In this document: piece after piece, positions 29,995 through 53,813 of the stretch
Numbering within the stretch: position 1 is the stretch's first letter
How the letters are laid out: every line of letters starts with the position of its first letter
Assembly (NCBI GenBank): GCA_001692895.1
Contig: KV748178.1
Span: 5,620,867 to 5,684,866 of the forward strand
Reading direction: 5' to 3'
DNA: 64,000 nt
Source of the DNA: Cenococcum geophilum 1.58
Lineage: Eukaryota > Ascomycota > Dothideomycetes > Gloniales > Gloniaceae
Program-made: the position numbers and the translations under genes
Notes under the pieces: generated by a model
Databases searched by the model: none
The model's input: the letters and a program-made list of their open reading frames with translations, nothing else
What the model was told of the DNA's origin: nothing

Positions 29995-30670
29995 AAGCCG
30001 TAAGCTAGCAGACTTCTATTACTAAGCGCGAAACTGCTGTATATTACCTAGCACATTACCCAGTTCTTTAAGCGGCAAGCTAGTAGACTTCCACCACTAA
30101 GCACGAAGTTGCCGCATATTGCTAGGCACATTGCCCAATTCTTTGAATTGTAAGCTAGTAGGCGTCGCCTATTAGTAGAGTATTTTGATATATTAGCTCG
30201 TATATTGCCCGGTTCCTACATTATAAGCTAGTAGACTTGTTATATTAATAGAGCACCACAACATATTGCCTAGCGCATTACTTAGGTCCTTAAATAGTAA
30301 GCTAGTAATTATCGCTTATTACTAGAGCACTACAATATATCCAGTCGCTTATTGCCTAGTTCCTTAAATAGTAAGATAGTAAACTTCTCTTATTAATACA
30401 AGAATTGCGGCATATTGCCAACATATCGCCCTATTCTATAAAAAACAACCTAATATACCTTCCATTAACTGTAAGAATGCGGTACATTGCTAAGAAACAT
30501 TGCTTACTCTATTAAAAAAAAACCCTAGTATATGCCTTCCATTAGCTATAAGACTACGGTATATTGCCTACTATATTACCTAATTCTTAAAACAATAGCC
30601 TAGTATACTTCTTCTACTAGATAAGACTTTACGGCAAATTGCCTAGCATATTACTTAATTCTACGCTAAA
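29995..30670. repeat. 75-bp tandem array 1, about 9 units
   Basis: Diverged units of the type GCGGCAAGCTAGCAGACTTC...AAATTGCCGCATATTGCC...CAGTTCCTTAA. The first two are close to consensus and the last four are degenerate and A-rich. The array lies directly 3' of SNF2 copy 1. The order of degenerate units at the SNF2 end is the same as in array 2, so array and gene were duplicated together. Confidence 0.85.
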
Positions 30671-30739
30671 ATATTAAAAACACTTCGCTAGAACACTTCT
30701 ACTAGCTGCTCCTTCGAACTCCCTAGCTTATTTATGTCT

Positions 30740-33700
30740 ACGTCTAGTATCTTATCTACAGCGGTCTTTTTTAATTTATACTTATTTAGAATTCCAACCT
30801 TAATACGGGAAGCCGTATTATATAAAATATATACTATTATAAGAGGGTTTTCTTGGCCAATTTGGTAGATATGGTATATAAACTGTTCCTATTTACTAAA
30901 GGACGGATTGAGCTCTATAAGCACAATAAAGTATACCTTATTAAGGGTAATACCCTCTATAATAGCCTTTAGAGATAATAAAAGAATCTATAGTCCGCTT
31001 AGCTGCTTCTACAAGTTATAGATAATATAGTTCTTTTACTTTAGTGATATTCCTCTAGGGAGATATATAACAGCGTTCTTACTATATTTAGCAACTAAGG
31101 CCTAAAATAAGTATTAACTTAGAGTTCTGGTTAAGCAAGCTGCTGTTAAGAGGTAAAAAGATAGAGTATTTTGTTACTTACTGCTATATATACCGCCCTA
31201 ATAGTTAGGAAATCAGTGCTAATAACAACCTTACTATAATACCCCCCGACGTTTTTTAATTGTATAACTTCTTTATAGATAGCTAAAAGCGCCTTAAACT
31301 TTATATTACCGCAAAGAATTTCCTCCTTATTCTTATTTAAGATACTTCTAATAGGAGATTTAATTAATTTTACGTGAAATTTCGCTTATATATCGATTTT
31401 GTCGTCATCTAGCAGATCCTTATTATATCTATCCTTCTATAAAAGTAACCTAGGCGTTATCGCTGCAACACAGCACATAAAGTAGGTGCTTAAGGAGGTA
31501 CCGGCTATTTATACTAGTTGGTTCCCATTAGAAGAACCATCTTCTTTCTATTTAACTATTTTCTGCTAAAATGCCTTTTCTATTTCTAACGCCATTGCAC
31601 TTTCTATACCCTATAGTAATTTAATTTCTATAGTTCTATACTTATAGTTTAGGTAGTAAATTTAGAGCTCGCCTAAAACAACTTTCAATTTTCTTCTATT
31701 AAAGCCGATGGTATTTAAGGTACGGCGAATTTCAAAGTTTATAAGTATTTCTCCACTAACCTAAACTGATTCTTTATATGCCGTAGACTATAAGACCCCT
31801 TTAAGGTTACTCTTTCCTTGTTTTAAAAAATAACTCTATAGTTTTGCTATTTTTTTTAACTTCGACGGATGTGCATTTTTTAAGAATGCTATTATCTTAA
31901 GCGCTTACCTAATCTAGATCTAAAAGGCCACTTATAATAAACTAATATATATCTACGATACTATTCTCTATTAGAGTCCCTAATATAGCCTAGATAAAGA
32001 ATCTAAGGCGTTTTAGTATAGTACTTTTATAGAAACAAAGAAATTGGTTAACTATAGTCTCTTTATTCTTCTTATTATAAAACTTATCCCATAAAACCCT
32101 ACCAAAAAACGTGGTCTTAACTAACTGCTAACCTTTATCCTCTTGCTTACCATTAAATAAAAAGCAGTAGACTCTTTTAGTGATTATAAAGTTGTCAATA
32201 ACACGCTGTTTTAGGCATTTAGATATTATAATTACAACAAATCTTATTACTAAGGCAGCCGGGGTACTAACTAAAGGATTACCCTTTCTAAGTGGTAGAA
32301 CACTATTGGAGAACCATAGGTAAGGGGTCTTTACTTTATCTATAAGAGCCTAATAAGTATTTAAAGCATTATAGGCGGTCTAGTTTCCCAATATTCCTAT
32401 TTCTAGCTACTTATCTAAAGTCGGCTGCTCCATACCTAGAGAAATATCCGCTGTTAAATAGTATATTACAACTCTTAGCGGTACCTACGCTTGCGTTATA
32501 AGTAGTAAGTCTTTAAATAATAAGATATAATTATCTCTCTAGGCAGTAATAATATATAGAACTGCGATAACTAGGCTGGCACTATACTGTTTATGTATTA
32601 TAGATATAGCGTTATAATTTACGCACGAGTATAGTAGAGGCACTCTATCCTAGCTAGGATACTTAACGCTATTAGCCTAGTGGCCCTCCGGTAGATATTA
32701 AGTAGCATTTTTAGCCGCTTAATTAGTAGCTACTTCGTCCAGGTTTATAGTATAGTAGTAATTAAGGACAATAGTTAAGTATGCGGTTACTATTTTGCCG
32801 GTCCCTATACTATCTATAAGAACCCCATTATTTAGCTCTATATATTCCTAATAGAACATCTTAGATATACTATGCAGCTAGTATAGGAACGCTCTAAACT
32901 CTAGATTTAGACCCTATCTACGGGGAATAGGAACTATATTATTCCCTAGGAGGGCCCCTTTAGAAACCCCCTATAGCTTAGCTAAGTGTTTATATATCTA
33001 CTACTCCATTCTCTTAACCTTACCACCTACTTTTACCGTAGCGGCTTTTTGAAATCTAAAAAAAGCTAACGTTAGTCTAATTTAAGATATACTCTATATG
33101 CTTATATGCCCATACCTCCCTATTGGCTTCGTTTATTATATCTTCAAAGGCCTCTTCTTCTAGGTTGTCGTCTTCTGTAGAAACTTATATGGTGTTACTA
33201 GCCAGATTGTCTACGGTTATAACCTATAGTTAAGCTAGTTTGGGATCCGGAGCGGTTACGCTTTAAAGAGCATTATAATTGTCTTTATTCTCCTCTATAC
33301 TATTAGGACCCCCTATAGGCTAAATAGCTGGACCGCCGCGGCCGTCCTTAGCAGCTTACCGTAATTTGCCTTTAGATGCTCTAGCAGGTTACTCCCTTTT
33401 ATAACTACGTTTCTTCCAACCTAATAAACTTAGAATGCTACTATACACTAATAAGGTTAATAAAGCATCGCTCTCACTTTCGATATCTTTATTAACGAAC
33501 TTATTATCTAAGTACTCTAAGTGCTTACGGATCTACTTAGACGCAGTCTTCCGCCGTTTCTTATATATAGGCTTACCGCGTAAAGACTGGCGAATTAGGG
33601 TATTGGCGATACTGGGAGGGTTTATACTCTACTTACGCGGTATTTAGTACGGTATTTCTATAATTAAATGCTCGGCTACAATTATTAGTATATAGATAGC

Positions 33701-34340
33701 CAGATATTGTTAAAAGAACTTATAATTAGTACTCTTAAGTATAAATTCCACTTTACTTCTGTGGTATAGTATACATTACTAAAACGCGGCTTATAATGCC
33801 CCTTACTGGGTAATGCAAGCCTCCTTATAGGATTCAATATTAACCTATATAATTTAATCCTTATCTAAGTTAAACCCTACTAATACTGCAACCTCTTAAA
33901 ATAGCAAAAAACTAATTTCTTTAATTATTAGAGTTTCTGTATTAGCTTCTATAATGTTATAAATTATACAAAGCTCTATAATATTTTAGGTAGTTAAGTT
34001 TATTCTTTAAAATTAGAAGGTTATATTTTTAAGCAAAAGCGGCTTACCTAATAATGTAGGGCCTAGTAATTCTAAGATTTGCTTAGGAGTAAATATAGGC
34101 GCTAGCGTTATTATAGATTCGAATTTGGGTTAAGTCTAACTTCTAAGTTCTAACTTATTTTGCTATTTTATGGCATTAGTTCTCTAAGATATTATTAAAG
34201 CAATAATGGTATCTTTAGACTAGCTTTCTAAAATACCTTCCCTTTTAGGCAAGTTGCTAAGGACCTTCTAGACAAAGTTATCGCGTAGTACTTTATCTTT
34301 AGCAGTATAAAACGCGACTTTATTAAGCCCGGCCTTTACT
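30740..34340 (-). pseudogene. SNF2-family helicase-like gene, copy 1
   Basis: SNF2/SWI2-type ATPases remodel chromatin or move on DNA. On the minus strand, a Walker A-like motif (VLIDSIGTGKIVTAYL) lies near 32,800-32,835 and a SNF2 C-terminal helicase motif VI-like segment (SK, EQFIYHIYQIGQENP) near 30,870-30,905, preceded by a segment that fits motif V (AIIEGITLNKVYFIVLIELNPS). Spacing of about 640 codons is plausible for a SNF2 core with insertions. The upstream region 33,050-34,340 also reads as coding on this strand, with a basic stretch near 33,560, and may be its N-terminal extension. Many stops, mostly TAA/TAG as RIP gives. A DEAD/SF2 helicase of another subfamily remains possible. Confidence 0.65.
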
Positions 34341-34869
34341 ATATTATCCAAAATTGTCTTCTTAATTTCCTTAAGGCGACGAGTATTAATTTCCCATCTA
34401 TTTATAATATCTAAGTCCTTTATAATAATGCGTAAAGATACCAAGATAGGACAAAGGAGAAGTAGAGCGTTGCTATATAAGAGCGGAAGAATCTAGTTAG
34501 TATTTAGTAAAGGTACAAGTCTAAAGTAGGTGGGTAAGATAAACCAATTATAAGAATTAATTAACTAGGCAGATTGCCGCAGTTTTAAGGTATAAGTTAC
34601 GGCTTAAAGTAGTAATTAGCGGTTAAACTAATTAATTAACTAATTAATATCGCGTAGAGGTGCCGTACAAGAGTTGGTTAAGGTAGTAGAGGTAAAAAGT
34701 TAGGCGAAGTGGATATTAAAGTTAAATACTTCCGCAGTAACGCTAGTAGGCAAATTGCCGTTATCTAATGCTTATTAATGGTAAGGTGAATTAAGAAGTT
34801 CTAGTGAATATATAAAATGCCGAGTCTAGCGGCATTTTGCGGCAGATTGCCTTAGGTAGTATAAGTTTT
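34341..34869. other. Non-coding spacer upstream of SNF2 copy 1
   Basis: No gene seen. It holds AACTAATTAATTAACTAATTAATATCGCG near 34,630, which recurs almost unchanged upstream of SNF2 copy 2 (near 41,875), so this is probably the shared promoter or 5' region of the module. Confidence 0.5.
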
Positions 34870-35836
34870 ATATAGTTATAATTTTTAGGATTTAAGAACT
34901 AAACTAACTTATTAGTTTATTAAAACTTGTAAATCCTGCCTTAACTACTAATATAAAAAGGTAATAACTTAGCTAAGTATAGAATTTACGTATTATTGTT
35001 AATTATTTTTTAATAGGAGACTAGGTAAAGCTAATTAAGCCTTTACTATAGCCTCCTTTAAGCCCTCCTATACTGCCCTTAATTAATCCTCTATATTAAA
35101 TAGCCGCTAGTTAAACCATTTAACCACTTATAGCACTTAATATACCTTATTTGGTGTATATAGTACGTCCTCCCTTATAACCTTAAGCTGGTCCTTTACT
35201 AAAAGCTCTTAAAATATTACCTTTCTTTAATTTATATTATGCGCTTTAGTTAGTTACGAATATAGTTTTATAACCTTAGAGATAATCCTACTTTATTACT
35301 TAGGCGTCCCGGATTAGATTAATAATAGATATATTTTAAGCCTTCTTAGCTTTTTAAAGTTCCTTAATTTCCGTTTTTAAACTCTCTATTCTGGTAATTA
35401 GCGGATAATATAGTCTACAAAGTATCCTATCCCTCCTTTATGCGACTGATTATCTAACTTACAACATTAAAGAGGTCCCTCTTTGTGGTTTTCTAGTTTC
35501 TATAATAGCCATCTCCGCGGCGCTGTTTTTATTTAACTCGGTTCTCTCTAGACTATATATAGCGGCATTTTTAGTAGCTAGTAGGACAGAATGGGTTAGC
35601 GGAGGCTTCTTAATAGGTAGCTAAGCTGTCTTCGTGGCTTTAGCTACCTTACTATTCTTCTCCTACTTAATCAGAAACCCTTTAATCTCCTTTTAGCAAC
35701 TATTCGCCGCTTTCTTCTTTCGCGGCTTTAGAGCTAGCTTAGTAGTCCCATCTCTATTCTTTAGTAACGCCTTTTTAACGTAGGGACGCTTAGTATACTT
35801 AGCTAGGGTGGTTGCATGCCTAGGGTTTTCATTCAT
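34870..35836 (-). pseudogene. Unidentified basic protein gene
   Basis: From the ATG at 35,834-35,836 the minus strand reads MNENPRHATTLAKYTKRPYV and continues with a lysine/arginine-rich N-terminus (PRKKK near 35,715). It is then coding-like to about 34,900 with several stops. I do not recognise a family. The basic tail suggests a DNA-binding or nuclear protein. It diverges from the SNF2 module's upstream region and has no second copy next to SNF2 copy 2. Confidence 0.4.
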
Positions 35837-36199
35837 CTATAATAGCCGATTAGCATAAAATATCTATAACTCCTCATTAGCATACATACTATTGCGATAT
35901 TTACTTTAAAAATAGGTTAAGGGCTAGTATATAGTTAAGTTAAGGGAAAATTGGTTTTAATATAGAGAGTAGGTAATAGATAGATGGATAGTATTTAGCA
36001 GTAAGATCTAAGAGAGAAGCTTATCCTTATTAACGTTAAGAATGCGTATAAAGCAGATAGGTAGTAGTAATTTAGGGGAAGACTTTAATAGAGGATTATC
36101 CTATATAATTGGCAGCTGGTTAATAGAGGAAGGGCAGAAACCTACAGTTGTGATATTATATATTACGACATTTTGCCCAACTTCCTTAAATATATATAT

Positions 36200-37127
36200 A
36201 GGTGGTGGCCTTCTATAGCATTTTATCGGCATTATAAGTTAACGCGTTTTAATAAGGCTTACTAATAAAATTACGCTAGCTAGGGTGCCTATAGTATGCT
36301 AACCTAGGTAGGAGCGCCTAAAGCGCCCAATATAAAAAGTCTCTTTTACTAGACGAAGGGATATAGAGCTTAAAGCTCCTCACTATTCGGTTACAAATCG
36401 CCTCTATATTATAACTATTTAATCTATACACCTTTTAGTGTTACCCGTTTTATAATTAGTGGCGGCTACTACTATAGCTTATTTAAATCTATAATTAAGT
36501 TAATTATTTAGTAAGGCTCCAGAATAAGGCTCTAGATTTAACTTCGTATATTAATATATAATTAACGTCAGTAAACAATTTAAAAGAGCCCCTCTCTACC
36601 ACCAGGCCTCTATCGCGACTTCTTACTTTAATATAGTAATAGAGCCTCCTCCTTAACCAACATCCTCTTTACAATCGGCGTTTCCTATATCTTTACCCAC
36701 CTCCTATACGAACCCCCCAGAAACAAGCTTATTGCGATTAAGAAGGTTAAGATAATAACATTATATAAGGCATGTAAACGCGACTATAGTATCGCGATTA
36801 GGGCATATATCTAGAATAAGCTATATACTAGTATAAAGAGAACAGTAGTGGAATAAGTGGGTGTTCTAGATTCTATGGCTAATACGCCCCTTAATAGACA
36901 CTAAGTTAGTAGCAGAGCTTTAGGAGTTACTAATTAGCCTTATATTAAGCACGGAGTTACCAGTAATCTATTCTTCCTTAGCCGTATTTTAAATTAGGTA
37001 TAGATCTAAAGCTCTAAGAGCTATATTAACTTTATATTCACTTCACTCTACTAATTAAATGGTTAGATTTAAAGTCTATATTAATTATAACTTTAGCCAG
37101 GAGCTCTAATTTAACAAGATCACTACC
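36200..37127. other. Coding-like stretch of unknown identity, probably plus strand
   Basis: From about 36,650 to 37,120 a plus-strand frame is coding-like with stops of the RIP type (for example LLRLRRLR, HISRISYILVQREQQWNK). No domain recognised. The rest (36,200-36,650) shows nothing I can support. It lies between the 34,870-35,836 gene and array 2. Confidence 0.3.
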
Positions 37128-38185
37128 TTAAAGAGTAAACCAGCAGACTTCAATCACTAAGCGCGAAATTGCTGTATATTGCCTAGTATACGCCCAGTTT
37201 CTTAAGCGGCAAGCTAGCAGACTTCTATTACTAAGCGAGAAATTATCGCATATTGTCTAGTATATTGCCTAGTTCCTTAAGCGGCAAGCTAGCAGACTTC
37301 TATTACTAAGCGCGAAATTGCCGCATATTACCTAGCATACCGCCTAGTTCCTTAAGCGGCAAGCTAGTAAACTTCCATTACTAAGCGCGAAATTGCTATA
37401 TATTGCCTAGCACACCGCCCAGTTCCTTAAGCGGCAAGCTAGTAGACTTCTATTACTAAGTACAAAGTTACCGCATATTGCTAGGCATATTGCCCAATTC
37501 TTTAAATTATAAGCTAGCAGGTGTCGTCTATTAGCAGAGTATTCCGATATATTAGCTCGTATATTACCTGGCTCCTACGCCGCAAGCTAGCAGACTTACT
37601 ATATTAATAGAGCACCACAATATATAGCCTAGCGCATTACTTAAGTCCTTAAATAGTAAACTAGTAGGCGCTACTTATTAATAGAGTACTGTAATATACC
37701 TAATTATGCGTTACCTAGTTCCTATATTATAAGCTAGTAGGCTCCTCTTATAAGCAGAGTATTCCAAATATTAGCTTATATATTACCCGGTTCCCGCGTC
37801 ATAAGCTAGCAGCTTCTTTTATTAACGGAGCACTGCGATATATTACCCGCGCATTACCCGGTTCCTTAAATAGTAAGATAGTACACTTCTCTTATTAATA
37901 AAAGAATTGTGGTATATTACTAATATATCGCCTAGTTTTACAAAAAACAACTTAGTATATGCCTTCTATTAGCCGTAAGACTGCTATATATTGCCAAATA
38001 CATTACTTAATTCTATAAAAAAAACAATTTAGCATTTGCCTTTTACTAACCATAAGACTGCGGAATACTGCCTACTATTGCCTAATTCTAAAAATAATAG
38101 TCTGTTATACTTCTTCTACTAGAGAAGAATTTACGGCAAACTACCTAGCATATTGCCTAATTCCGCGCTAAAAGGATTAAAAACA
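37128..38185. repeat. 75-bp tandem array 2, about 14 units
   Basis: Same unit and same order of degenerate end units as array 1, but with more near-consensus units at its left (37,135-37,500). It is directly 3' of SNF2 copy 2. Confidence 0.85.
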
Positions 38186-38229
38186 TATCGCTACTATAAT
38201 CTATAACATTTATATTAGCTACTTCTTTA

Positions 38230-41200
38230 AATTTCCGGGCTTATTTATATCTATGTTTTTTTTTAAACTTAAGCTTATTTAGAATTCCACTTTTAATACG
38301 GGAAGCCGTTAATAGTAACACCCTCCGTAATAGCCTTTAGAAATAATAAGAGAATTTACGGTCCATTTAGCTGCTTCTACGAGTTATAGATTATATAGTC
38401 TTTTTGCTTTAGTAGTATTCCTTTAGGGAGGCATACAACGGCATCCTTACTATATTTAGCAACTAAGGCTTAAAATAAGTGTTAGCTTAGAGTTCTAGTT
38501 AAGCGTGCTGCTATTAAGAGGTAAAAAGATAGAGTGTTTTGCTACTTACTAGTATATATACCGCCCTAATAAATAAAAAATTAGTACTAATAAAAAATTT
38601 ACTACGATAGCCTTTAATATATAGTGCTGCTGTAATTTCTTTATAGATAGCTAAAAGCGTCTTAAACTTCGCGTCGTTGTAAAGAATTTCCTCCTTATTC
38701 TAATCTAAGATACTTTTAATAGGATTTTTGACTGCGTTAGTATAGTATTAAACTGGACGTTTATTTTTTTATTATCTAGAAGATCCTTATTAAATCTATC
38801 CTTCTATAAAAGTAACCTGGGCGTTATTACTGCATCACAGTATATAAAGTAGCTGCTTAAAAAGCTGCTGGCTATTTATACTAGTTTTTTCCTAGTAGGA
38901 GAACTATCTTCTTTCTATTTAACCATTTTCTGCTAAAATGCCTCTTCTATTTCTAACACTATTACACCTTCTATACTATATAGGAATTTAAGATCTTTAG
39001 TTTTATAATTACACTTTATGTGTTAAATTTAGAGCTAGCCTAGGACAGCTTTTAGTTTTTGGTTATTAAAGTTAATAGTATCCCAGTTACGGCGAATAAG
39101 AAAATTTATAAGAATTAGGCCGCCGACCTTAACCGATTTTTTATATATCGCAGACTATAAGGCACTTTTAGGGTTACTCCTTCCCTGCTTTAAAAATTGG
39201 GTCTATAGTTTAGCTATTTTATTAACTTCCGCGGATATATATTTTCTAAGAATGCTAGGTCAGCTTAAGCGGTTGCCTAATCTATATCTTTAAGGGCGCT
39301 TATAATAAACCAGCATATATTTATAATACTATTCTCTATTACTATACTAGAAATAGCCTAGGTAAAGAATCTTAGGTATAGCGGTACTATATTTTTTTTA
39401 AGAACGAAGGAATTAGTTAATATAAGTTTTGTATTTTTTTTTTATTATAAAACTCATCCTATAAGATTCTGCTAAAGAGCGTAGTTATAACGGTCTATGT
39501 ACTTCTATAAAGGGCCGTTAGAGAACTATAAATAGGGCGTTTTCTTTTTACCTATAAGAGTCCGACTATTATTTATCGCATTATAATCTAACTAGTCCCC
39601 TAAAGTCCCCATTTAAAGCTATTCCTAAGGGTTTAGTCGCGCCATTCCTTTAAATACACCTTCTGTCTTATAGCATATTACAAACCATAGTAGCGTCTAC
39701 TCTTTTATTATAAGCGTAGAGTCCTTAAATAATAAGATATAATTGTCTCTCTAGCTAGTAATTATACTTAGAATTATAATAACTAAATTTGCACTATACT
39801 GTCTTTATATTATAGATATAGCGTTTCGATTTATATATAAGTATAGAAAAGGCATCTTGTTTTAGCTAGGACACTCGGCGTCTTTAGCCTAGTTGTCCTT
39901 CTATAGATACTAATTTATATTCCTAGCCGCTTAATTAGCAGCCGCTTTATCTAGGTTTATAGCATAGTAGTAACTAAGGACAATAGTTAAGTACGCGGTT
40001 ATAATTTTTCTAGTTCCTACACTATTAGCAAAAACCCCACTATTTAGTTGCGTGCGCTCTTAGTGGAACATCTTAGATATGCTATACAGCTAGTATAGGA
40101 ATGATTTAAACTTTAGATTTAGACCCTATTTACTAGGAACGGGGACCGGGTTCTTCGCTAAAACGGCCTTTTTAGGAACTCTATATAGCTTAGCCAAACG
40201 TTTATATATCTACTACTCTATTTATTAAACCTTACCTCCTACTTTAGCTATAGCGGCCTCTTAAAATCTAAAAAGAGCTAATATTAGTCTAATTTAAGAT
40301 ATACTCCATATAACTATATGCTTATACCTTTACGTAATAGGTATTATAGCCTATATCTCCTTAGCTTAGGTTATATTATTTTTAGGCGCATTTTCACCTA
40401 AGGTATCTTAGATCGCATTAGTTTCTATAATTTTACTAAAAAAAGCTTTTGCGGGTATAGTATTAAATTATTATATAGAGTCTAAGCTAATTAGGGATAT
40501 AAAGCAGTTTTACTCTAGGGAGTATTATAATTATTCTTACCGTGCTCTATATTATTGGGATTATCCATAGGCTAAATAACTAGATTATTGCGGCTGTTCC
40601 TAGCAGCTTGCCACAGTTTACTATAGTTTACCCGTGGATGCCTCTAGTAGGTTACTCCCTTTTATAATTACGTTTCTTCGGACTTAATAAACTTAGAATG
40701 CCGCTGCGTATTAATAAAATAGATAAAGCATCGCTCTTATTCTCGCTATCTTTATTAATAAACTTAACATCTAAGTGCTTACGGATTAGCTTAGGCGTAA
40801 TCTTCTACCATTTCTTAAGTGCGGCTTTAGCGCGCGAATACTATAGGTTAGAGTATCGGCAATTCTAGGAGGGTTTATACCCTACTTATTTAGTAATTAG
40901 TACGGTACTTTTACAATTAAATACTTAGCTGTAATTATTAGCATATAGATAGCTAGATGTTATTAAAGGGACTTATAATCCATACTCTTAAGTAGAAATT
41001 CCACTCTACTCCTATTATATAGCATACACTACTAAAACAAGACTTATAATAGCCCTCGCTAGGTAATACAAACCTCCTCATTGGTAACCACGTTAAGCCA
41101 AGTAATTTTATTCTTATCTAAAATAAAACCTACTAATACTAAAACCTCTTAAAATAGCAAAAAACTAATTTCTTTAACTATTGGAGTTTCTATATTACCT

Positions 41201-41560
41201 TCTAAAATTTATAAACTATATAAAGCTCTATAGTGCTTTAGGTAATTAGGTTTATTCTTTAAAACTAGAAGGTTATATTTTTAAGTAAGAATAGCTTATT
41301 TAGTAATATAAAACCGTATAATTTAGAGATTGGCTTAGAAGTAAATATACATACTAGCGTTATTATAGGTTTAAATTAGGTTTAACTTCCAACTTTATAT
41401 TATTTTACCGTTTAGTGGCATTAGTTCTCTAGGATAATATAAAAGAAATAATAGCCTATCTAAACTAGCTATTTAAAGCACATTCCTTCTTAGTTAAGTC
41501 GCTAAGAATCTTCTAAATAAACTAATCGCATGGCACTTTATCTTTAGCAGTACAAAACAT
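38230..41560 (-). pseudogene. SNF2-family helicase-like gene, copy 2
   Basis: Aligns with 30,740-34,340 over its length. The Walker A-like region lies near 39,990-40,030. Compared with copy 1 it lacks about 120 bp that include the C-terminal motif VI region (near 38,308) and about 150 bp near 39,500, so it is the more decayed copy. Substitutions between the two copies are mostly transitions. The duplication therefore predates much of the RIP, or both copies were mutated independently afterwards. It is followed by array 2 and preceded by the same AATTAATTAACTAATTAATA spacer as copy 1. Confidence 0.65.
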
Positions 41561-42039: not shown

Positions 42040-43080
42040 AAATACGCTTCCTCTAGTTATAGAAAATATTCTTTATAAAACTAGCATAATAGGCGGAGCC
42101 AGAAGTACATTAGAATATATAACCTAAGAATAAGGGTTAATGCGCCTAGGACGTTTTACCTATCTAGGATTAATATTTTAGCTTAATTAAAACCGCTTTA
42201 ATATATCCTTTTAAGTAGGGCTCCTAGTAAATAATTAAAACTCTAAATAGTATTAGATTTAAAGCTATAAGGACTAATACTATATACCGCGTATATTCGT
42301 AACCACAAAAACAATTATATCCTTAGAGGCTTTAAGCGTTTATCATATTACATACTTTAAAAGTCCCACATTCTAAACTAGCATAATTATTAGTATATCT
42401 GCCCATAACTCCTCCATCTCTAGGTTAACTCTAGCGTCCTAGGCAATATTAAGAAATTTAGGGAAATCTAGAAGACTCGTCTATCCTTTTACTAAGTTAG
42501 TTTAAAGTAAACTAGCACCTAAGTCCATATAAATTATAGACCGTGGTATATTCTCTAAATCTTGGCATATACAGATTACAAGACCCTAAACGTCATATTT
42601 ATTAATATATTTAGGTAAAAGAGATTAATATACGTCCTAAGGCTCTATACAAGGGTACCCTATAGTAGAATTTATAGCTCTATACCAAAGTCCCAATTCA
42701 GCACTAGCCCGGCTAGCTTTCTTACACATATTTAACTGCGTGCGAGTAAGGAGATATTAGGCCACTTTCTTAGTCCACTTAACCAGAGCATTACTAGACT
42801 CTAGGATTTAATTAACGATTTTAGCTATAATCTCACTTTAAATAGCGTAATTTATTCAGTCTCGGAAGCGTATAAATATTATATTACTCTTATTTATAAT
42901 ATCCTCAACTACCCCTTTAATCTTATATAAACGAGCGCTACTAATACTAAACCTAGATATAATCTGCTTATCCTTCCTAGGAGTTTTACTGGTAGACTTA
43001 TACTATACCTCCTCTATAGTATATACACTATTTAATTGTATTATTGCTATGCTAGGTATATATAGTATTAGCGAGGGATA
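42040..43080 (-). pseudogene. Unidentified gene
   Basis: The minus strand is coding-like from about 43,000 to 42,370, with a run MCKKASRASAELGLWYRAIN (near 42,680-42,740) and LPKYINKYDVQGLVICICQD shortly after. No family recognised. It stands head-to-head with the Plavaka-type transposase gene, so the two could share a promoter region in 43,080-43,340. Few stops compared with its neighbours. Confidence 0.45.
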
Positions 43081-43339
43081 TAGGATTAAAGGTTTATAAA
43101 TATTTAGTAGTTGTAAATTAATTATAATAGGTACTGTAGGATACAATACTACTTTATATATTATTAGCGCTTAGGATAATATACTACTTAGTGTATTTAA
43201 CTTATAATTTAAAAGGAGCAAGCCATTATAGTTATTAGGATAGCTGGCAGATCGCCGCAGATTACAGCTATTAGATTAGTTATATAATACTCTACCCTTT
43301 TTAGGCACAAACCTACCTATCTAATCTTAATAACAACGT

Positions 43340-46300
43340 AAGGAGCCGCATTTATCGCTATTATAATAGGCTTAATAAATCGCCAGTGCCCTAAATATAA
43401 GCGCACGATTTCTACTATAGGTAGATTGGCGCGATATAAGCTGTACTACAAAGCTATGGGCATAGACTATCTTAACCAACAGGATAATATCCATCCTATA
43501 ATTTAGGCTCGAGTAAATATATATAAAGACGACAAATTTACTATAGAATAATAGGTACACAACCTTATAGCAACTAACACCGCTATTAATAATACTTTAC
43601 TAACTATTATAGGAAATACCGGCTTAATATTAGTAGAGGAGCTAAGTAATACAGCACTAGTAGAATAACTAACTAGTACTGAAACGCATAGTTACGCGGC
43701 AACAAGCCTCTTTACCTTAAATATTTATTATACCCAAATTTATTATAAAGTAACTAGCCACTATATAGGAACCCCACTTAGCCACCCAGAGGGGAACTCT
43801 AATCAGCAGTTTACCATAAATCACGACCACCCACTAAGGCCTAGCCAGCCAGCAGATAGAATAAATAAAGGCAATAATATATTCTACCCTTTTACAAGCT
43901 CTATAGAATGGGCGTAAGTTACCTAGTAGGTACGTAATAGTACGTTAGTAAAAGAAATAGACATATAGCTATAAGACCCCCGTATTAAAAATATAAGGGA
44001 TAGATATATATTATACCGAAATATAAAAGAAGTTAAGATAAAACTACATTCTATTTCTAAAGGTGTAAGCAATAAAAGCTGGCGAATTACAGAACTTAAT
44101 ATATACGGCAAAAACCTAAAGATATACCACTATAATATACTTAGCGTGGTAGCCTTCCTAATCGGTCATTTCCCATTTAAAGATAATATAGTTTATTCTC
44201 CTATTCGTTAGTTTAACGTAAAAGGTAATAGAGTGTATAACAAGGCATATACGGCTAACCGTTAGTAGGAGATCTAAGATTAATTACCTAATAGTACAAC
44301 GGCTATTATGGTAATACCTAGTAGCGACTAAACTAAGCTAACTACACTATCTGGAGACAAAAAGGCGTATTTGGTTTACATTATAATACTTAATATCCTG
44401 TTAAAGACTTAACGTATAGCTAGTAGGCCAGTAATACTTCTTCTAGGTTATATACCTACGGACTTACTAAGTAACCGGATGAATAAGCTGGATGTATACT
44501 ATTAAGTAATAAGCATTATATTTAAACGTAAGTATTTACCTTAGCAGTGTGTAGGTACTTAAGTTAATATAAAAACTAGCCCTTAAACGCGCTGCTAGGC
44601 GCGGCATACCAATGCGATGCGCGGATGGGTTTATCTAGCAATACTACCCTATACTTGTTAGGTTTATAGCAGACTATAAGGAGCAGGTTATGTTAATAGG
44701 AGTGAAATTAGGGCAATACTGCACGATATATTATGTACCGCCTTATAAACAAGGTAACCTACTAAGCACTATATCCGGTAAATGGCCGCGATAGACACAA
44801 ATTAACTATTAAGCAACTTAAACGATAGTAAAACTTGCAGCTAGATCGCAGCGACCCTAAGTATATTAGGCCAATTTAAAATTTTGCCTAGTCCTATTAT
44901 ATAGCGGATATACACGCTATAATGGCCCCTAATTTACTATACTAGCTATATAAAGGCGTTACGGAGTATTTAATAAGCTGGCTTTAAGCACTACTACTTA
45001 ATATTAAGAAAGGGAAAGGGAAGGTTCTAATAACTAATTAAAGTAGTATAAAAACCCTATTATCTGCTAAGGATAGGGTAGAACGTCTTCTAACTATATA
45101 ATTTGCCGAGGTTAAACCCTTTTAGGGTATAATTAGATAGGATAACTTCGTAGAGTTAAGCCAATAGACTGGAAAGATATATAAGTCCCTTCTTTATCAG
45201 ATTGTACCAGTTGTGGTACCGTTACTATATAGGTACGAGGGGGCAATGCTATTTATTCGTGCTATAGTTAACTTTATATTATTAGCCGAATATAAATTAT
45301 ATAATAAAGATACGATTAAATATCTTAAAGCTGCATTATATCAAATAGATAAGACTAAGGAGGCGTTTTTACCGTATTAACCTGACGACAAAAACCCACC
45401 CAATTTTAACATACCTAAACTTTATGCAATTTCCCACTATTTAGAGATAATTTGTGTATTCGGCGCCCTAATAGGAACTATAACAGAGTATAGCGAAAGG
45501 GCATATATTCCTTAGAAGAATTTCTATTAAAGATTAAATAAGCGTGAAGGGTATAAAGAGTAAATAATTTATCTTAATATGGAATTAATAAACACTATAG
45601 TAATATAAGAGATGGAGCTATAGGAAAACATAAGGCTAATATTAGCAGCTAATACTATAGAAGATTTATACATTATATTATTATTAGGCATAGTTAACCT
45701 AATAGACGAGCCGTATAGATAGGATTACTGCTAGTTAACTAACTAAATATTTTTAATATGCGGAATAAACCTAAATTTATAGCGCAGAGCCTACAAAATT
45801 TAGACTAGGCTAGGTATTAATAAATTTGTTATAAAACTAGCTTCGTTTATACGGGAATATTATAAGCGAGTTAATAGTATATAAGTAACGGATTTAGACA
45901 TTAAGCGCCTTAAAAGGGATACAGCCTGGGCATAAGATTTACCTATTAGTATTTATCACTTTATAATATACTATATTTAACGCGGTAAAGACTTTTATAA
46001 TCTTAATCGACTATATAAAGTACGGGCACGCTATAATCTAGTCTAGATACGGACCACTACCCTATAAAGGGACTAAGTTTTTATACAAGAATATAAGAAT
46101 ATAATAGATAGAATAAAGGGAACGCGGGCTACCTATCTAGAATTGCTGGTATCGGTATAGGACTTAAATCGTATAGGCGAGAATAGTAGATACTAAGTAT
46201 ACTATAGAGCACTTCTTAAGCTATTCCGTCCATGTAATAGAGGTAAGGTAGATCCTTTTAATGGGATAATTAAAGTGGAACGATTTCCTATAAATATAGC

Positions 46301-46780
46301 GCAAAATAGATAAAACCTAGACGGCCACCAAATATACAACATTTCCTATATTAAGAGACCCATATGACTAATACTAACTTCGCTAAATAAAAGAAGAACG
46401 TTTTAGATCAACTTATACACAGATTGGGACATATACAATCGATTCTATAATAATAATTTTCTTCGGATTAACAGTATACGCGCAAATAAGTTTATAAAGA
46501 AACAAAAATCTAAAACTAAGCTTCTAATTAAATTATAGGAGGCCTTAGAACGAAAACGAAAACGGCCAATATAATGGGGAATCCGGTATATTTAATCCCT
46601 AGGAATCTAGGCAAATTAGCTATAAGATAAGGCAAGATAGAAAGAAGTTAAGAAAGCTGTTAGTTAGCTTAAAGGTAGAGGCGGCGTGTCTAATATATGG
46701 GTAAATTAAGTAGTAAAGGGGCTCGTTAGAGTGAGAGGCTGGTTAGCTATACGTATTTTTACGGATTTTATATTAGCAGA
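43340..46780 (+). pseudogene. Plavaka-type DNA transposase
   Basis: A long plus-strand frame of about 1,100 codons with RIP-type stops. Recognisable blocks in order: an N-terminal segment with STIGRLARYKLYYKAMGIDY (near 43,410); NNIFYPFTSSIEWA (near 43,880); VVAFLIGHFPFKDNIVYSPI (near 44,150-44,205); VIPSSD then LSGDKKAYLVYI (near 44,310-44,380); LLGYIPTDLLS (near 44,455); MAPNLLY...LYKGVTEYLISW (near 44,930); QTGKIYKSLLYQIVPV (near 45,170); and ITEYSERAYIPQKNFYQ (near 45,490). These match, in order, the Plavaka transposases known to me (SD-T-LS-GDK, MPPDLLHQL-KG, SITE-HI-VK-PW). Plavaka is grouped with CACTA/KDZ-type cut-and-paste transposases. It is probably the transposase that moved the 24-kb block. 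Confidence 0.72.
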
Positions 46781-46799
46781 GTAGTATAATAACCCCCCC

Positions 46800-47390
46800 T
46801 CTTCTACCTTTCTCTTCCGATTTACCGTATGTTTTTCTTTAACAGGCTTTATTTTTATAATAATCTCTACCTTTATAGTCTAAGCTTCTTCTAACTATTT
46901 ATAATTAAGTATATCAACTCTATTAACACTTAGGGCTAAATTAATAGCTAATCTTTACAATCGCCGCTTCTTAATATATAAAATAGCCTTATATTGCTCC
47001 TTTATAAAGGCTCTCCTTAAGTTTTAAATATAAAACGACTTTATTAGCTTATTGCCTAAGCTAATACGCTTTAAGGGAGATTTTAGGTAGAAAAAGGCGG
47101 AAATAGCGCGATTAAATTGACTCTACGTCTTAGGTGTATCTATAGGCTAACTAGGTATAAAGGGGAGCTCCAGAGTACGTCTTAATAAGGGAGGAGAATA
47201 AGGACAACCGTTAAGCACTTACTACTTAGGTAGTGTTAACCTACCAAACCGCCAGAAAAGGTTAGCCATATCTATATAAATTAGTTAAATTCTTACATTT
47301 TTATAGGCAGTTATAACGCTCTTGCCCATAAAGATTAGCTCTAGTACTTACTTATTAGTAGGAATTCTTAATATTACGTAGCTAACGGCA
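46800..47390 (-). pseudogene. Possible C-terminal remnant of a pogo/Fot-type DDE transposase
   Basis: The minus strand reads PIDTPKTQSQFNRAISAF near 47,110-47,160, then a helical basic region (KSPLKRISLGNKLIK, REQ-rich, ending NRKRKVEEGG near 46,800). The layout (a TPKT motif, then helices, then a basic tail) resembles the C-terminal region of fungal pogo-family DDE_1 transposases. The catalytic domain is not seen upstream, so this is a fragment at best. It lies tail-to-tail with the Plavaka-type gene. Confidence 0.35.
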
Positions 47391-47569
47391 AGATATACGG
47401 CAATCTACCACAATTTGCCCTAAGTAGGCTAGTAATAGGTCTAAGCTCCCCAGCAGAACATTAAAATCTCCCCCTTTACTCCTCTATTTTATTAACTGTA
47501 TCCACACTAGTAAATATATAATTTAAAAGTATTATACTTTATCTTTATATCTTTATTAACTTCTTTAAC

Positions 47570-48420
47570 TTCTTTTACGTTAGTTATACCGAAGGTTTAC
47601 TAACCTCTACCATCCTAAAAGAATATAACTATAGCTTCCAAAAAAAATAAGGTATAGACTACCCTCTATATAACTACTTAAAATACTAATATATACCTAC
47701 CACTAAGGTAAAGGTAAAAGAAATAGCACTACTAGTGCGAGAAGAATCTAGAAATGTATACGCGAACAGTAGTCGGGCTAAAGTACTATAAATAGTATAT
47801 GCACGGTAGTATGCAGCTAACTTTAGCAGACGGCTATATATGGCGATAGAATATCTAGGGATAGTATCCTAAAATATTAGTTAGATATAAATAGCGATTC
47901 TAAAGAAAATAGAGGCTTAATGCCCTAGGGAAGAGTATATTATTAACAACTCCAGTAGAGTTTAAACAAAGAATCTCTAGATCTATATATACAGAATTTA
48001 ACTATAGTATCTATTATATAGACTCTATTCCTTTATACCCGCTTATACTTTAATAGCGGTTATAAGTCCTAAATCGCCCTAATAAGCGGCTCCAATGCTA
48101 CTATCCCTTTACTAAAGAGCTTATCTCTAGTGCCGAAGATAACTCTATAGCCGAGTCGTTTTATATAGCGCCTATACGCAGTAATAAACCACAGAAGTCT
48201 TAATACGGTATATATACAGTTAGAAGATAGCAAGGAATAAAACGTAGCAGTAAACCTAAATTAAAACTTACGGATAAACTAATATCAAAAGCTACTATAC
48301 GCTTCTTTTTAATGTTTATAATATCGGGCAAGGCTCCTAAAGGTCTTTCTTTTACGCTATAGCTAAAAGGGAACGTAAAAACTCTAGAAAAGACGATGGA
48401 CTTAATATAGGATAAAGTAG
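47570..48420 (+). pseudogene. Unidentified coding-like stretch
   Basis: Plus strand, coding-like between about 47,700 and 48,100 (ALLVREESRNVYANSSRAKV near 47,735; FSRRLYMAIEYLGIVS near 47,835; ILKKIEAQCPREEYIINNSS near 47,900). No family recognised. Cut at its right by the LINE. Confidence 0.35.
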
Positions 48421-48439
48421 TAGAGTATAATAATAATTC

Positions 48440-50345
48440 ATTGCTTAACGTCCGATTTGGATCCCTATTGGGCCCACGCGGACTACTCCTTATTTACATG
48501 TGGGGAGAAAACTCTATTTAAAAAAAATAAGAAAACCCCGTAATCCATCTCCCCGCCTTTTAGGACTCGCCTACTTAGCGCCTATAAGTCGCCTATAGTG
48601 CTCTACTACCTTACTGTTTAACCTTTTTAGGAACTACTGCTGCCGTAATAAGCCTACGGACGCGCTAGTATTACAAACTATTACTCTACTACTGTAGAGT
48701 TACTAGGGGGCACCTACTACTCGCCCCCTTACCTTTTATTACTATTTCCCTTGTAACCTAGAACTAATTTAGCACATTTTAACTAATAAGCCACTGGGTG
48801 ACCGCCTTAAGGCCTTTTTATATTAAGAGTAGTGTATTATAGTTCTCTATGCTAGCTGCTAAGAGCATTATTTCTTAATTAGTGCGTAGGGGGCATAGCA
48901 GTATTACGTGTTTTAGTGTCTGTTTTAGCTAGCCATATTTATATCTTGGGCTACCTACTAGGACACCTACCTAGTAAAGCCAATCTTTTAGTCCTATTAT
49001 TCCTATTCTTAAGAGTGTTACTATTATATTTTCTGCCTTTATTAGGCCTTCTCGGAGCCCTTAGGTATTTACCCCCTATAGTGTTAACTATGCTATAGCT
49101 TGGGTTCGTCTTGCCTAAGTTAGCCTCTATACCTTTAACTCCCATTTACCTCTCTAGCGTTAGTCTAACCAGTATTATATTGCGGTAGATGGTTTTCTAG
49201 CGTTCTTATATGTTCTACTTTAGCTCCTTTCTCTATCTTGCTATTGTCTTTACTAACCTCTTACGCGTCTCCCTTCCTTCTCTATATAGGCTTGGGCCCT
49301 AAAGCGGCACTATTCTTCTTTTGCTTTCTTTACCTGTTTCTCTAATATCTCTTCCCTACTTTAGGGTTATTGGTTTATTCTCTTACGGGGCACCCTAAGG
49401 TCCCTCTATAGTTTACTTAGGCGTGTCTTAATATACTTTATAACATTAGAGTTATATTTATTTTGCGTCCTTTATATTATAGCGGCTTTAATATATAACT
49501 ATAGGGGGGGAATATTAGATTCCTTCTTAAGTAGTGCTGTGGCCGTTTACTTATACCTACCTATAATACTCTAGAGGCAGGCTGTTTGGACCTTTTAAAG
49601 TGGTTTAAGAAGTAATTTAGAGGGGCCCTTTTTAGTTTCTCTAATGGCCCAAATACTGGATCTATATATTATGGTTAGCCGGACAACTGCTATATATAGT
49701 AGGTGTGACCTCTAGAAGCATAGACCCTATATAGAATTAACAATCCTGGATAAAGCGATAAACTATGCTTGGCCTTTATAGGCCGCTTGCGTTGTATATA
49801 CGCTCCACCGGAGCTTACTGTTTACCTATACTCCTAATACCCTTAGGCCCTGAACTGGTTAACCCCTAAAGCCTTAAATGCGAATTATATGCTAGAGATC
49901 TATAGATTAGTTGTGTTTTCTTATGAAATAGATTAGCTGGTATTTCTCTAGTGAGAATTAGACTCTATAACGTTTTGCCTATTCTATATAAGTATTATAG
50001 GCTTTCTCTAGTGTTCTGCAATTCTCTACGGCTATTGGCCCGTATATAATTAGGTTTATGTCGTTAACGAAGCCTATTCCCTAGGTTGCCCCTTCCTTAA
50101 AGGAGTTAAGCAGGTTGCTTATAAAGAAAAGGAAGAGTATAGGCGAGAGGGGTGATCCTTGTGGTATTCCTGTTGCAACTGCAATAGGGGGGCTCTGGTA
50201 TCCGCTGAAGACCAGTGATGTTTCTTTCTGGCCTGTAAACCCTTGGACAAATTGTATAATCCATTCTGGGAAGCCCTTTGCCCTAAGGATATGCAGGTAG
50301 GTAGTTATATATTAGCTATAATACAGTAGAGTTCGACATGCCTGC
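48440..50345 (-). mobile_element. 5'-truncated LINE (Tad/I-like non-LTR retrotransposon)
   Basis: On the minus strand the reverse transcriptase shows WIIQFVQGFTGQ (near 50,240) and GIPQGSPLSPILFLF followed by a FVNDINLIIYG active-site region (near 50,010-50,180), where the usual F/YxDD reads FVND. Downstream, near 48,780-48,930, LLCPLRT and GLKAVTQWLISQNVLNQF fit the C-terminal segment of Tad-like LINEs. ORF1 and the N-terminal RT are missing, so it is 5'-truncated at about 50,345. A plus-strand open frame at 48,916-49,098 is a shadow. RIP is moderate at the RT end and stronger toward the 3' end. Confidence 0.75.
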
Positions 50346-51420
50346 TTATCTAGGCCTCTACCCCAGTTTTCAGTGGCTTATTCCCACCTTTGGGCGTCAC
50401 CACCTCTACGGTCAAGGCTGGGCCAAAACCTCTCCCGCCTGAGTAACTCCTGTTTGCTCCTTAAGTGTACCTTACTAGCATACTGCCCTAGTAAGCAGCC
50501 GTACTGCCCTGGTGAGCAGCCGTACTGCCCTAGCGAGCAGTCCTATTTATTGGTACACCGACACGCGCATCCGTTCTCTCGAGCTACGTAGTAGTCTCTC
50601 CGGCCAGGACGTGATCCTGCCTGCCTACTAGGTGCACTAGGGGTCAGAGCCTAGCTAAGGGGTAAGGTCCTTAGAGCCAGCAGTGGCTACTACGCACTAC
50701 GCCCTATGGGGGCTAGTAGTAATATAGGGGCGCAACACCCTATATATACTACTAGCTCCCGTTTCGCGTTGCCTATAAGAGTCTCCTTATGATAGGCCGA
50801 CCGTGTCTTGCAGGAGGGGGCTATAGACCAGGTCCCGTGCTAGGCGACCTACTCCCCCCTCTCCTACTAACCAAGCTTGTGTCCCCCCTTCCTATAAGCT
50901 GGCCTGTGTCTCTAACTGTCGAGACCTCGTCCGACTAGCCTGTGTTTCCCCTACAGCCTCCCCCATATATATGCATCAGGTTGCGTGCACCACGCCTATT
51001 AAGACCCTCCTATGAGTTACCTTTTGACGCCACGGGGCCGTCGAAGCTGGCCTGTGTTTCCGCTGCCTAGAGCTTTGCCCGTGTTTCCACCTCGTTGAGC
51101 CGTCTGGTCGCCGTCCGGTCGCCGTCGCGTTGCCGTCGCGTCGCCGGCGCGTCGCCGTCGTCCAGGTCGCGCGCACCACGCCTATTAAGACCCTCTTCTG
51201 AGTCACCTGGGTGTACCGGATACCAGATAGGCCCTTATGGAGGGGCCTTAACGAGTTCTCTAGGTAGGGCCTTAACAAGTTCTTCGCGGTGGCCTTGGGA
51301 TAGTAGAGTATAATAGGGTTTCCAAAGGCGACGGTTCTAGCGAGGCTATATAAAAACTGTCGCCATTAATATATCGCATAGTAAGCTACCTCTTATTACT
51401 TCTATATATACTAACATAAA
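50346..51420. other. GC-rich, un-RIPed island without recognisable gene
   Basis: It contains three tandem copies of a 21-bp repeat (TACTGCCCTAGYRAGCAGCCG, 50,480-50,550), a hairpin (50,708-50,760), a pair of 44-bp direct repeats sharing GCACCACGCCTATTAAGACC (50,980-51,020 and 51,168-51,210), and a GTCGCCGTC-type simple repeat (51,105-51,160). The open frame on the minus strand at 50,976-51,278 is produced by these repeats and is not a gene. CA and TG are normal here, so it was inserted after RIP or escaped it. It may be the 5' region of the LINE or an independent element. Confidence 0.5.
50708..50760. repeat. Long hairpin (about 20-bp arms)
   Basis: GGGGGCTAGTAGTA...TATAGGG pairs with CCCTATATATACTACTAGCTCCC across the loop GCGCAACA, with one or two mismatches. 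Confidence 0.75.
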
Positions 51421-51462
51421 ATAGATATATAATAGTATTAGCCAGTTCTAGTCTTACCTATT

Positions 51463-51832
51463 TGTCACGGAGTGAGCACAAGCGGTGATAATATATAGCG
51501 AAGTAGGTATTATTAAGCTATGTACATGAACTGCGTAATGAAGTCAAGACGTTGCGTAAGGAAAGAAGGTAGGAAAACGGGAAGAAAGGGCATATATCGT
51601 TGGCTTGGTTGCTTGGTCAACACGTGCATGGGCAGAATAGGGTTCAGGTCGTGGTCCTGGCAGAACTTGGCAGAATTCGGTGGAACTTGGCAGAATATGG
51701 CAGAATGCCGTAGATTGCCGTTAGATTGCCATCAGATTGCCGTCAGATTGCCATTTCGCGGTTGGTCTCTAATTGCTAAGTCGGTGGAAACAGGTGGACG
51801 TGTGCAAGGTGTCACGGGGGTGTCCCGTGACA
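51463..51832. repeat. Solo LTR (370 bp) with 5-bp TSD
   Basis: It starts TGTCACGGAGTG and ends CCCGTGACA, and CTATT is duplicated at 51,458-51,462 and 51,833-51,837. No internal element remains, so it arose by recombination between two LTRs. The last 23 bases form a perfect hairpin (TGTCACGGG/CCCGTGACA). Inside are GGCAGAA repeats (51,657-51,706) and GATTGCCRTYA repeats (51,712-51,750). It is little affected by RIP, so young. The open frame at 51,520-51,867 runs through it and is not a gene. Confidence 0.87.
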
Positions 51833-51837
51833 CTATT

Positions 51838-53240
51838 AAAACGCATACGAGATTGCGTAAAGGCTAAGTACTTATTTAGAAAGCTCTCTAAGCAGGAAAT
51901 AATTGCTAGAGTGGAAGAGCTACTCTATATAGATAACTTTTAATACTTTAAAACAGTACGCATAGCTATACTACCTTAGTACTCTCCTAACTATTTATAG
52001 GGCGAGTAATCCCGCTTTATAGCACCGGTTATTATAATTAATCTCTCCAAGTCATTCTTTAAAGGAAGGTAGTAATTTAGGTTTAGTATAGATACGCAGC
52101 ACTTTCTGCGCCTAATTAGCCCTAGGGCTGTTATACTAATTTATATAATAATCCGCCACGTTATTAATAAATAGAAAAGTGGTAGTTTTACCTAACAAAA
52201 GTTTAAAGTAGGTGCCAATCTTAATAGTAATTTATTCTTTCTCTACCCTTATTCTAACTACCTAGGCTACACCGTAACTAACTTTAATATTAGCTATATA
52301 GGAACGGACAAAGGCTATGTAGGCGGATTAGTTAACAGAGCGCTAGAACCGGATTTTAGGGCTTCTGCAATAGGGCGTCTTAAAAAGACATTAAGTAACT
52401 ATATATAGCAATAACCCTGCTATACAAGCAATTCCAAATCCATTTAAATATAGTCTTAATAATCTTTCTAACCTAGATTCCGACTATAACGCAGGATTTA
52501 ATAAGCAGCGCTTTAATATACTTCCACCGGTATATAACTACTTATAATAACAGTTTTAGACTAATACTTATATCTAGGTACTTAATGCGTCCCTTTCCTT
52601 AAACCCAGACACCTCCCGCCCTTTCGGCACTATTACTTAGCCTAATATACCCTATGATATGTCGCCTAATTAGACCAACTACAGTACTAATTACTAAGGC
52701 GGTAGGCCTGACGATATTAGCGACCCTAACAGCGGTATAAATAGCGGGACTAATACAAACAAGTGTTATAACGGATATAGTGGAGTTAATATAGATAAAG
52801 ATGGCAATGCGGATAATAGAACGGATATAGCTTTAGGTGGAAATATAAATAATTAGAATAGTGCGAGAAAGGGGGGCAACGAATATAATAGAGTGGACAT
52901 AGGCAATAATGCCGGCGTAAATAGTGGAGAAGATATAGATAAGGATAGTAGCGCTAGTAACAATTTCGGAAATAATACCTATAAGCTTATCTTTAAAGGT
53001 ATAAAATCGTAGAATTGGAAACGTACTATTAATATACTATATCGCTAGAATTACGAACAGTTAATGGCTGTAGTTAAGCTATTTAGAAAGACGCTTGGGG
53101 CTGAACCCAATATAAGTCTTTAGTATACTATTGGGGGAGGGGTTAAGTCTATACTATTTAATAATAAGGATCTAGATATCTTTAGAACAAGGGTAGAGAA
53201 GGGGCTAGGCAAGGTAAATGCTTCGTAGTCTATAATAGGT
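51838..53240 (+). pseudogene. Unidentified gene with Asn/Gly/Asp-rich linker
   Basis: Plus strand, coding-like with RIP-type stops. It has a segment SYIGTDKGYVGGLVNRALEP (near 52,300). A long low-complexity region follows (about 52,680-52,970) rich in Asn, Gly, Asp and Ser, with repeated GVN, GNN, NNAG and DKD motifs. After it comes a compact C-terminal domain including YEQLMAVVKLFRKTLGAEPN (near 53,050-53,110). No family recognised. A flexible linker before a small folded C-terminal domain is typical of accessory transposon or DNA-binding proteins, but this is inference. The solo LTR interrupts it or its promoter. Confidence 0.45.
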
Positions 53241-53299
53241 TTAGAGGAGTAGCTATTTTATATAGTAGTTATAATATAAATATATTTTTAAAGGCATAT

Positions 53300-53525
53300 T
53301 ATAGCAATCTATGGCAATCTACAGCAATCTATAGCAATCTATAGCAGTATATTATAATTTATATAGTTTATACAGTTTATATAGTTCGTATAATTTATAT
53401 AGTTCGTACAGTTTGTACAGTTCGTACAGTTCGTATAGTTCGTACAGTTCGTATAGTTTGTACGGTTCGTATAGTTCGTACAGTTTATACGGTTCGTACA
53501 GTTCGTATAGTTTATACAGTTTGCG
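53300..53525. repeat. Subterminal arrays: TAGCAATCTA-type and 9-bp GTTCGTACA repeats
   Basis: About four copies of AGCAATCTATR are followed by about 20 copies of the 9-mer GTTCGTACA (variants GTTTGTACA, GTTCGTATA, GTTTATACA). A diverged form of the same pattern is at 59,780-59,840, in the matching position of the related element. Confidence 0.8.
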
Positions 53526-53813
53526 CGCTATTTATTTATAGGGTAGCAAAAAGCTAGCATTAGTTTGGTAGTTAAGCGTTTTACTATAATTTACTATTAG
53601 ATACTACAAACTTGTTACAAAACGCGCAGTTTGCTATTAGATGCTATAAACTTGTTACAAAACGCACGGTTTGCTATTAGGGTGCTGCAAACTTATTATA
53701 AAACGCACGGTTTGTACAATTCGCTAACGACTATATCCACCTGCCGCAACCGTATAGTTTGCGGTAATTTGCTGCAAACCGCAACAACTAGCCTAAAAAA
53801 AAATTTCCTAATG
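53526..53813. repeat. Right terminal region of the giant element
   Basis: TTTGCGCGCTATTTATTTATAGGGTAGC begins a block shared with 59,850-60,030. It contains three copies of a 50-60-bp unit with GTTTGCTATTAG and TTACAAAACGC (53,590-53,720), then CATATCCACCTGCCGCAA-like sequence, and ends GCAACAACTAGCC + A-run + TTTCCTAATG. An open frame at 53,631-53,846 crosses the terminus and is accidental. Confidence 0.75.

Follow-up and report, generated by a model that had tools for sequence, protein, structure and literature searches.

As published, X3X3R8 of Stagonospora nodorum measures 26 kb and consists of a full X3 unit, a second, incomplete X3 (10-20% divergent) and then R8 (PMC3017866). The same source gives the X3 family a length of 9364 bp and 213 copies, and R8 a length of 9143 bp and 48 copies; among the genes are Rad5/SNF2-like helicases in tandem and a Rad6-like ubiquitin-conjugating enzyme, along with unknown genes, and the authors labelled the whole an 'endogenous gene cluster' (PMC3017866). 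The Plavaka transposons treated in PMC12730594 are classified within the CMCT clade. These families come from Agaricomycotina and are reported to carry a TET/JBP dioxygenase; PlavakaB termini are given as 5'-CATCA..TGATG-3' with duplications of 2-3 bp (PMC12730594). In addition, Inton and Enton transposons with a SNF2 helicase are mentioned in PMC3627910. Here we compare with these systems a block at positions 29995-53813 of a 64-kb stretch of the Cenococcum geophilum 1.58 genome (contig KV748178.1, positions 5,620,867 to 5,684,866; the whole stretch is "the window" below) that contains a Plavaka transposase and two putative SNF2-like helicase units.

On balance, we lean towards reading this block as a left-truncated giant PlavakaB-type DNA transposon, decayed by repeat-induced point mutation (RIP), that sits in the long terminal repeat (LTR) of a gypsy retrotransposon and carries tandem Rad5/SNF2-like helicase genes as cargo. 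Such an element would measure at least ~21 kb when a stretch resembling a long interspersed nuclear element (LINE) is left out. The original prediction of a giant transposon with its own helicases holds as far as a Plavaka insertion into one gypsy, containing SNF2-like genes, is concerned; a complete element is not confirmed, as no left terminus was found.

Insertion of a Plavaka-type element into a gypsy LTR

The window is mostly AT-rich and carries the signature of RIP, with TpA/ApT ratios of 1.31-1.88 (2-kb steps) and depletion of CpA and TpG; the predicted RIP decay of the insertion is supported. Stop codons abound in most of its frames, and frames were accordingly translated with stops as X.

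The block interrupts a single gypsy inside its LTR region, as had been predicted, because an unoccupied copy of that region in a neighbouring gypsy (copy 1, minus strand, 17949-22168, legible as 17949-18200 plus 20741-22168) matches both flanks. The left flank (29899-29994, minus strand) belongs to gypsy copy 2 and is 86% identical to 17949-18044 of copy 1; the homology is clear up to 29994, or up to 29999 with a more lenient search. The right flank (53814-55051, minus strand) is part of a gypsy LTR; it shows 84% identity with the LTR copy 20930-22165 and, by reading, matches 20926-22168. A 2.5-kb LTR element (18201-20735), with a CCGCC target duplication on both sides, interrupts copy 1 in turn. 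The internal region of copy 2 (22949-29994, minus strand) retains a reverse transcriptase (25835-26296), an RNase H (25235-25621) and an SH3_Tf2-1 match below cut-off (23894-24070). The gypsy LTR was recognised by the purine tract adjoining the LTR copy that ends at 22948, and three LTR copies have a common end by reading (22168, 22948 and 55051). We rejected 29994 as the outer end of the LTR, since the sequence of copy 1 can be followed beyond 18044 as far as the LTR of 20741-22168. The insertion of the block into one gypsy LTR is confirmed, its junction at the right terminus being located with a precision of a few bases.

Within the block, the predicted Plavaka-type transposase is present as a frameshifted pseudogene on the plus strand, the pieces of its Pfam domain (PF18759) lying one after another in the three plus frames at 44086-44478 (E 5.5e-19), 44579-44758 (E 5e-8) and 44838-44984 (E 0.009, below the family cut-off). 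Beyond these domain pieces (44086-44984) the extent of the pseudogene, 43301-45700, was judged by eye against the family consensus, sequence of similar appearance covering ~43.3-45.7 kb. As to the C(2)C and H(3-4)H signatures of the family between the second D and the E, reading by eye suggests that a C and an H have given way to Y, as RIP would do.

The right terminus that had been predicted is likewise confirmed. At 53813 the minus strand opens with CATTAGGAAATTTTTTTT (53796-53813), and by reading the homology to the unoccupied LTR restarts at the very next base, the alignments placing this start at 53818 or, with lenient gaps, at 53803. The end reads CATTA, which RIP would yield from the 5'-CATCA of PlavakaB by a single C>T change. 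The 18-mer has four matches in the window at up to three mismatches, against 0.09 expected. One of the places with the same end is 60030, the boundary of a ~1.8-kb non-autonomous element (58196-60030) that has the terminal sequence at both of its ends, the left one reading CACCA. The TT on both outer sides of this element resembles a target duplication, with a 1 in 16 chance of such a match for unbiased bases; the block's own left flank is lost. Subterminal repeats of the block (53254-53749; 9/18-mers and 40-mers) are common to 59670-59994, and k-mers from the two ends of the small element recur in 53201-53813 at z 8.6 (20 segments tested), in a test that is noisy at z ~3, the unrelated segments 2034-9326 and 325-2029 giving 3.4 and 2.7. 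The left end of this non-autonomous Plavaka-type element is a 266-bp hairpin resembling a complete miniature inverted-repeat transposable element, followed by a GC-rich 12-bp minisatellite.

Two tandem units with putative helicase genes

To the left of the transposase lie two direct copies of one sequence, 29994-34730 and 37203-41978, with 72.7-77.6% identity over the longest alignments. Unit A (29995-37120) is truncated on the left and comprises a 75-bp satellite array, a SNF2-like gene and a 2.4-kb tail from ~34740; unit B (37121-42000, the right border being approximate) opens with a satellite array and is incomplete, lacking the tail. The homology of the two ends at 34730/41978, and the tail of unit A has no copy either in unit B or in 41900-53813. 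The arrays at 30.0 and 37.1 kb are those of the original prediction, which also named two SNF2-type copies; as to the latter, the two direct units are evident, and their SNF2 identity is modestly supported.

We regard both units, with fair but not full confidence, as carrying Rad5/SNF2-like helicase pseudogenes. In unit A the frame concerned (30844-33549, minus strand) has many stops. It contains in order what we take to be a motif-I-like stretch (at 32832; 32794-32832), a motif-III-like stretch (32328) and motifs V-VI (30978 and 30867; 30844-30978). The second frame (38250-40854, minus strand) was identified solely by its homology to the first, and 124 bp with motif VI in unit A (30817-30940) have no counterpart in unit B. 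For the C-terminal piece 31200-30700 the sole PDB match up to E 10 was RAD5, at the corresponding place (E 0.68); conversely, when the RAD5 fragment was run against the six frames of the window, this piece ranked first with E 0.003, the next being 0.24. A profile of RAD5 and two relatives, built after this hint from PDB, gave 16.1 bits for unit A (E 1.5e-4), whereas none of 20 resampled windows exceeded 6.8 bits and the reversed window reached 2.8.

The differences between units A and B favour the third codon position of this frame in 32306-33300 (117 against 85 and 86, p 0.031) and in 32306-34740, where the p value is 0.02, in contrast to 0.91 in 30851-32120, 0.41 in 33300-34740 and 0.13 for the whole unit (five tests, uncorrected). 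PDB matches of the helicase frames to 3lml and CorB were judged spurious.

One element or several, and the remaining contents of the window

That the helicases are cargo of the Plavaka element we infer from their position, from the lack of a detected internal Plavaka left end and from the published layout of X3X3R8. In the course of events that we envisage, a PlavakaB-type transposon would have inserted into the gypsy LTR with two tandem Rad5/SNF2-like helicase genes between its now lost left end and the transposase, on the strand opposite to the latter. CACTA-like transposases move their elements by cut and paste; the Plavaka enzyme would bind the subterminal repeats and shift the whole unit in this way. 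The helicases would be either passengers or helpers, acting on chromatin or in the repair of gaps left by excision and insertion. Afterwards, a LINE would have inserted, the repeats would have undergone RIP, and a deletion would have taken the left end together with ~341 bp of the LTR.

The traces of this presumed deletion are the following. The ~341 bp of the LTR region (18045-18200 plus 20741-20925 in copy 1) are missing from gypsy copy 2 and have no clear copy in the block: the best plus-strand score was 79.5 against at most 71 in 20 controls, and a place unrelated to it showed a larger excess (100, compared with 86.5 at most). The left border, 29994/29995, cuts the satellite array, which is longer in unit B. 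A scan forgiving only C-to-T and G-to-A changes found no left terminus in 29995-53813; its one 18-base match, at 45815, has three non-RIP mismatches (1.2 such matches expected), and there was no match over 32 bases. Among the matches listed by a purine/pyrimidine scan there was no convincing plus-strand left terminus in the block, those within it being weak. They comprised 18-base candidates with one mismatch at 31564, 35465, 38931 and 48110, and 34-base matches in the block to the 53813 end with 6-7 mismatches; outside the block a plus-strand candidate at 12744 had 3 mismatches in 34. All were taken as chance, being absent from the RIP-forgiving scan. The satellite arrays were considered as left subterminal repeats and dropped, since the unbiased k-mer test, run over 20 segments, showed no signal in the helicase units and singled out the right end; two motifs chosen post hoc occur 8 times in the 12.0 kb of helicase units, against 3 times in the 38.3-kb rest and not at all in the 11.2-kb Plavaka part.

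Several observations weigh against a single giant element with helicase cargo. Neither a left terminus nor its target duplication was found in the block, so that the co-mobility of the helicases with Plavaka is putative, and the five segments of the helicase units show no excess of k-mers from the element ends (z -0.8 to 1.6). Where unit B meets the Plavaka part there are ambiguous bases, past which unit B resembles unit A weakly, with a score that 5 of 200 shuffles equalled. As to the helicases themselves, no SNF2 or helicase Pfam match appeared in a six-frame scan or in further pieces, PDB searches with three whole minus frames of unit A or with the A/B alignment returned no helicase, and an AlphaFold model of the helicase frames had a mean pLDDT (predicted local distance difference test) of 29.8. 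Finally, Pfam and bait searches of the block gave no ubiquitin-conjugating enzyme, and X3X3R8 is described, in the part of its account consulted, without transposase or termini (PMC3017866).

The main rival explanation is a patchwork, in which the gypsy received a Plavaka element of ordinary size whose left part was invaded by, or joined with, an independent repeat bearing the helicases. That the helicase units show no k-mer connection to the ends of the element would fit such a history, as would the truncation of the satellite array at the left border relative to unit B and the presence in the block of at least one further stretch resembling an insertion, namely the LINE-like one. However, no Plavaka left end was detected from unit B up to the transposase, which would speak for one element, and the tandem helicases and third part of X3X3R8 are reported to recur as a unit, a point that counts if the third parts are the same. 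We think a patchwork unlikely, if still worth serious consideration. It is more improbable that the helicase tandem was joined to the Plavaka part by an artefact of assembly or recombination at the low-quality stretch around 42.0 kb. This would account for the ten N within 41943-42004 and for the weak homology of B to A past them, and another part of the window is probably misassembled, 10098-12175 recurring at 12798-14875 beside a 25-N gap; yet the N near 42.0 kb occur singly or in pairs, dispersed through readable sequence, and form no gap, and a similar layout has been reported for X3X3R8. Weakest of all is the proposal that the frames of units A and B are chance motifs in RIP-mutated DNA and no SNF2 helicases, which agrees with the negative Pfam and whole-frame PDB searches and with the whole-unit codon-position result, but which the profile score, far above that of the controls and the reversed window, and the ordered motif I-, III- and V-VI-like stretches within one frame make very improbable.

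With respect to the other contents of the block, at least three further genes had been predicted, and this was not confirmed: there is a DUF6532 match just above cut-off (PF20149, 51839-52210, plus strand; 24.3 bits against 24) and a LINE-like reverse transcriptase that seems to be a later insertion. The latter (PF00078, E 5.2e-7 at 49829-50269) lies in a GC-richer stretch at 49300-51750 on the minus strand, with approximate borders and called a LINE by eye; it is probably a nested insertion, and probably younger than its surroundings because it is less RIP-mutated. For two Ganoderma species, PMC8955403 lists DUF6532 alongside KDZ and Plavaka domains.

The rest of the window is crowded with other elements. 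A hAT transposon (14718-17947; Dimer_Tnp_hAT on the minus strand, E 2.7e-12) lies inside gypsy copy 1, with CAGTGTGTC ends and a perfect 8-bp duplication, GCGCTATA. Its left end is present twice (12018 and 14718) because of a 2078-bp repeat (10098-12175 and 12798-14875, 99.95% identity) that adjoins the 25-N gap (12176-12200) and is probably an assembly duplication. The 2.5-kb LTR element at 18201-20735 has TGTTGG..CCAACA ends, LTRs of ~166 bp and 46 copies of a GC-rich 12-bp minisatellite, so that such minisatellites occur in two unrelated elements of the window, this one and 58196-60030. Also in gypsy copy 1 is a 7.3-kb element (2034-9326) with 201-bp direct terminal repeats (92%) and no Pfam domain in its three plus frames at E 0.01.

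Comparison with described systems

Starships are giant mobile elements of fungi with cargo, their captain being a tyrosine recombinase (DUF3435). The block differs from them in that no such captain was among the Pfam matches of its six frames at E 0.1, a result in which decay could hide one. With Inton and Enton it has in common a SNF2 helicase within a DNA transposon, as far as a brief mention in PMC3627910 goes, and our literature search found no paper naming both 'Plavaka' and 'SNF2' and a single one naming X3X3R8. Searches of non-fungal collections, viral contigs with Plavaka, SNF2 and DUF6532 pieces and genome contigs with the Plavaka piece, yielded no relatives, an outcome that carries no weight for a fungal element. 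The likeness to the PlavakaB lineage consists of the transposase domain, the right terminus (CATTA for CATCA) and the TT that flanks the related non-autonomous element in the manner of a 2-bp duplication. The differences are the helicase units, the satellite arrays and the lost left end of the block, as against the TET/JBP dioxygenase of the families published in PMC12730594.

The block also resembles X3X3R8 as described in PMC3017866. Both are RIP-mutated and have the same order of a unit with tail, a shorter second unit and a third part; both have tandem helicase units of which the second is incomplete, the helicase identity being modestly supported in the block. R8 measures 9143 bp, against 11.8 kb for the third part of the block, or ~9.4 kb without the LINE-like stretch, with approximate borders. 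A difference is the Rad6-like ubiquitin-conjugating enzyme of X3X3R8, for which the block gave no Pfam match in six frames, in a scan that likewise missed the SNF2 units, and a best E of 2.3 in a bait search, for which the reversed control gave 0.098; decay may conceal such an enzyme.

The resemblance is thus one of layout and of one gene, by description, and we refrain from assigning the block to X3X3R8. Tentatively, and with somewhat less confidence than we place in the block as a giant element, we suggest that the two may be one kind of self-mobile giant PlavakaB transposon carrying a post-replication-repair module, which would consist of the two Rad5/SNF2-like helicases and, in S. nodorum, of the Rad6-like enzyme as well. 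The transposase and terminus of X3X3R8 may have escaped notice through RIP degradation.

If this is true, the known cargo of Plavaka elements would be extended by helicases of the DNA-repair type, raising the question of whether such elements carry enzymes that ease their passage through chromatin or the repair of gaps. Moreover, the X3X3R8 cluster would be a giant Plavaka transposon whose dispersal is explained by a transposase and a terminus such as those of the block, and a mechanism would be supplied for a large dispersed repeat that has hitherto been read as a duplicated cluster of host genes.

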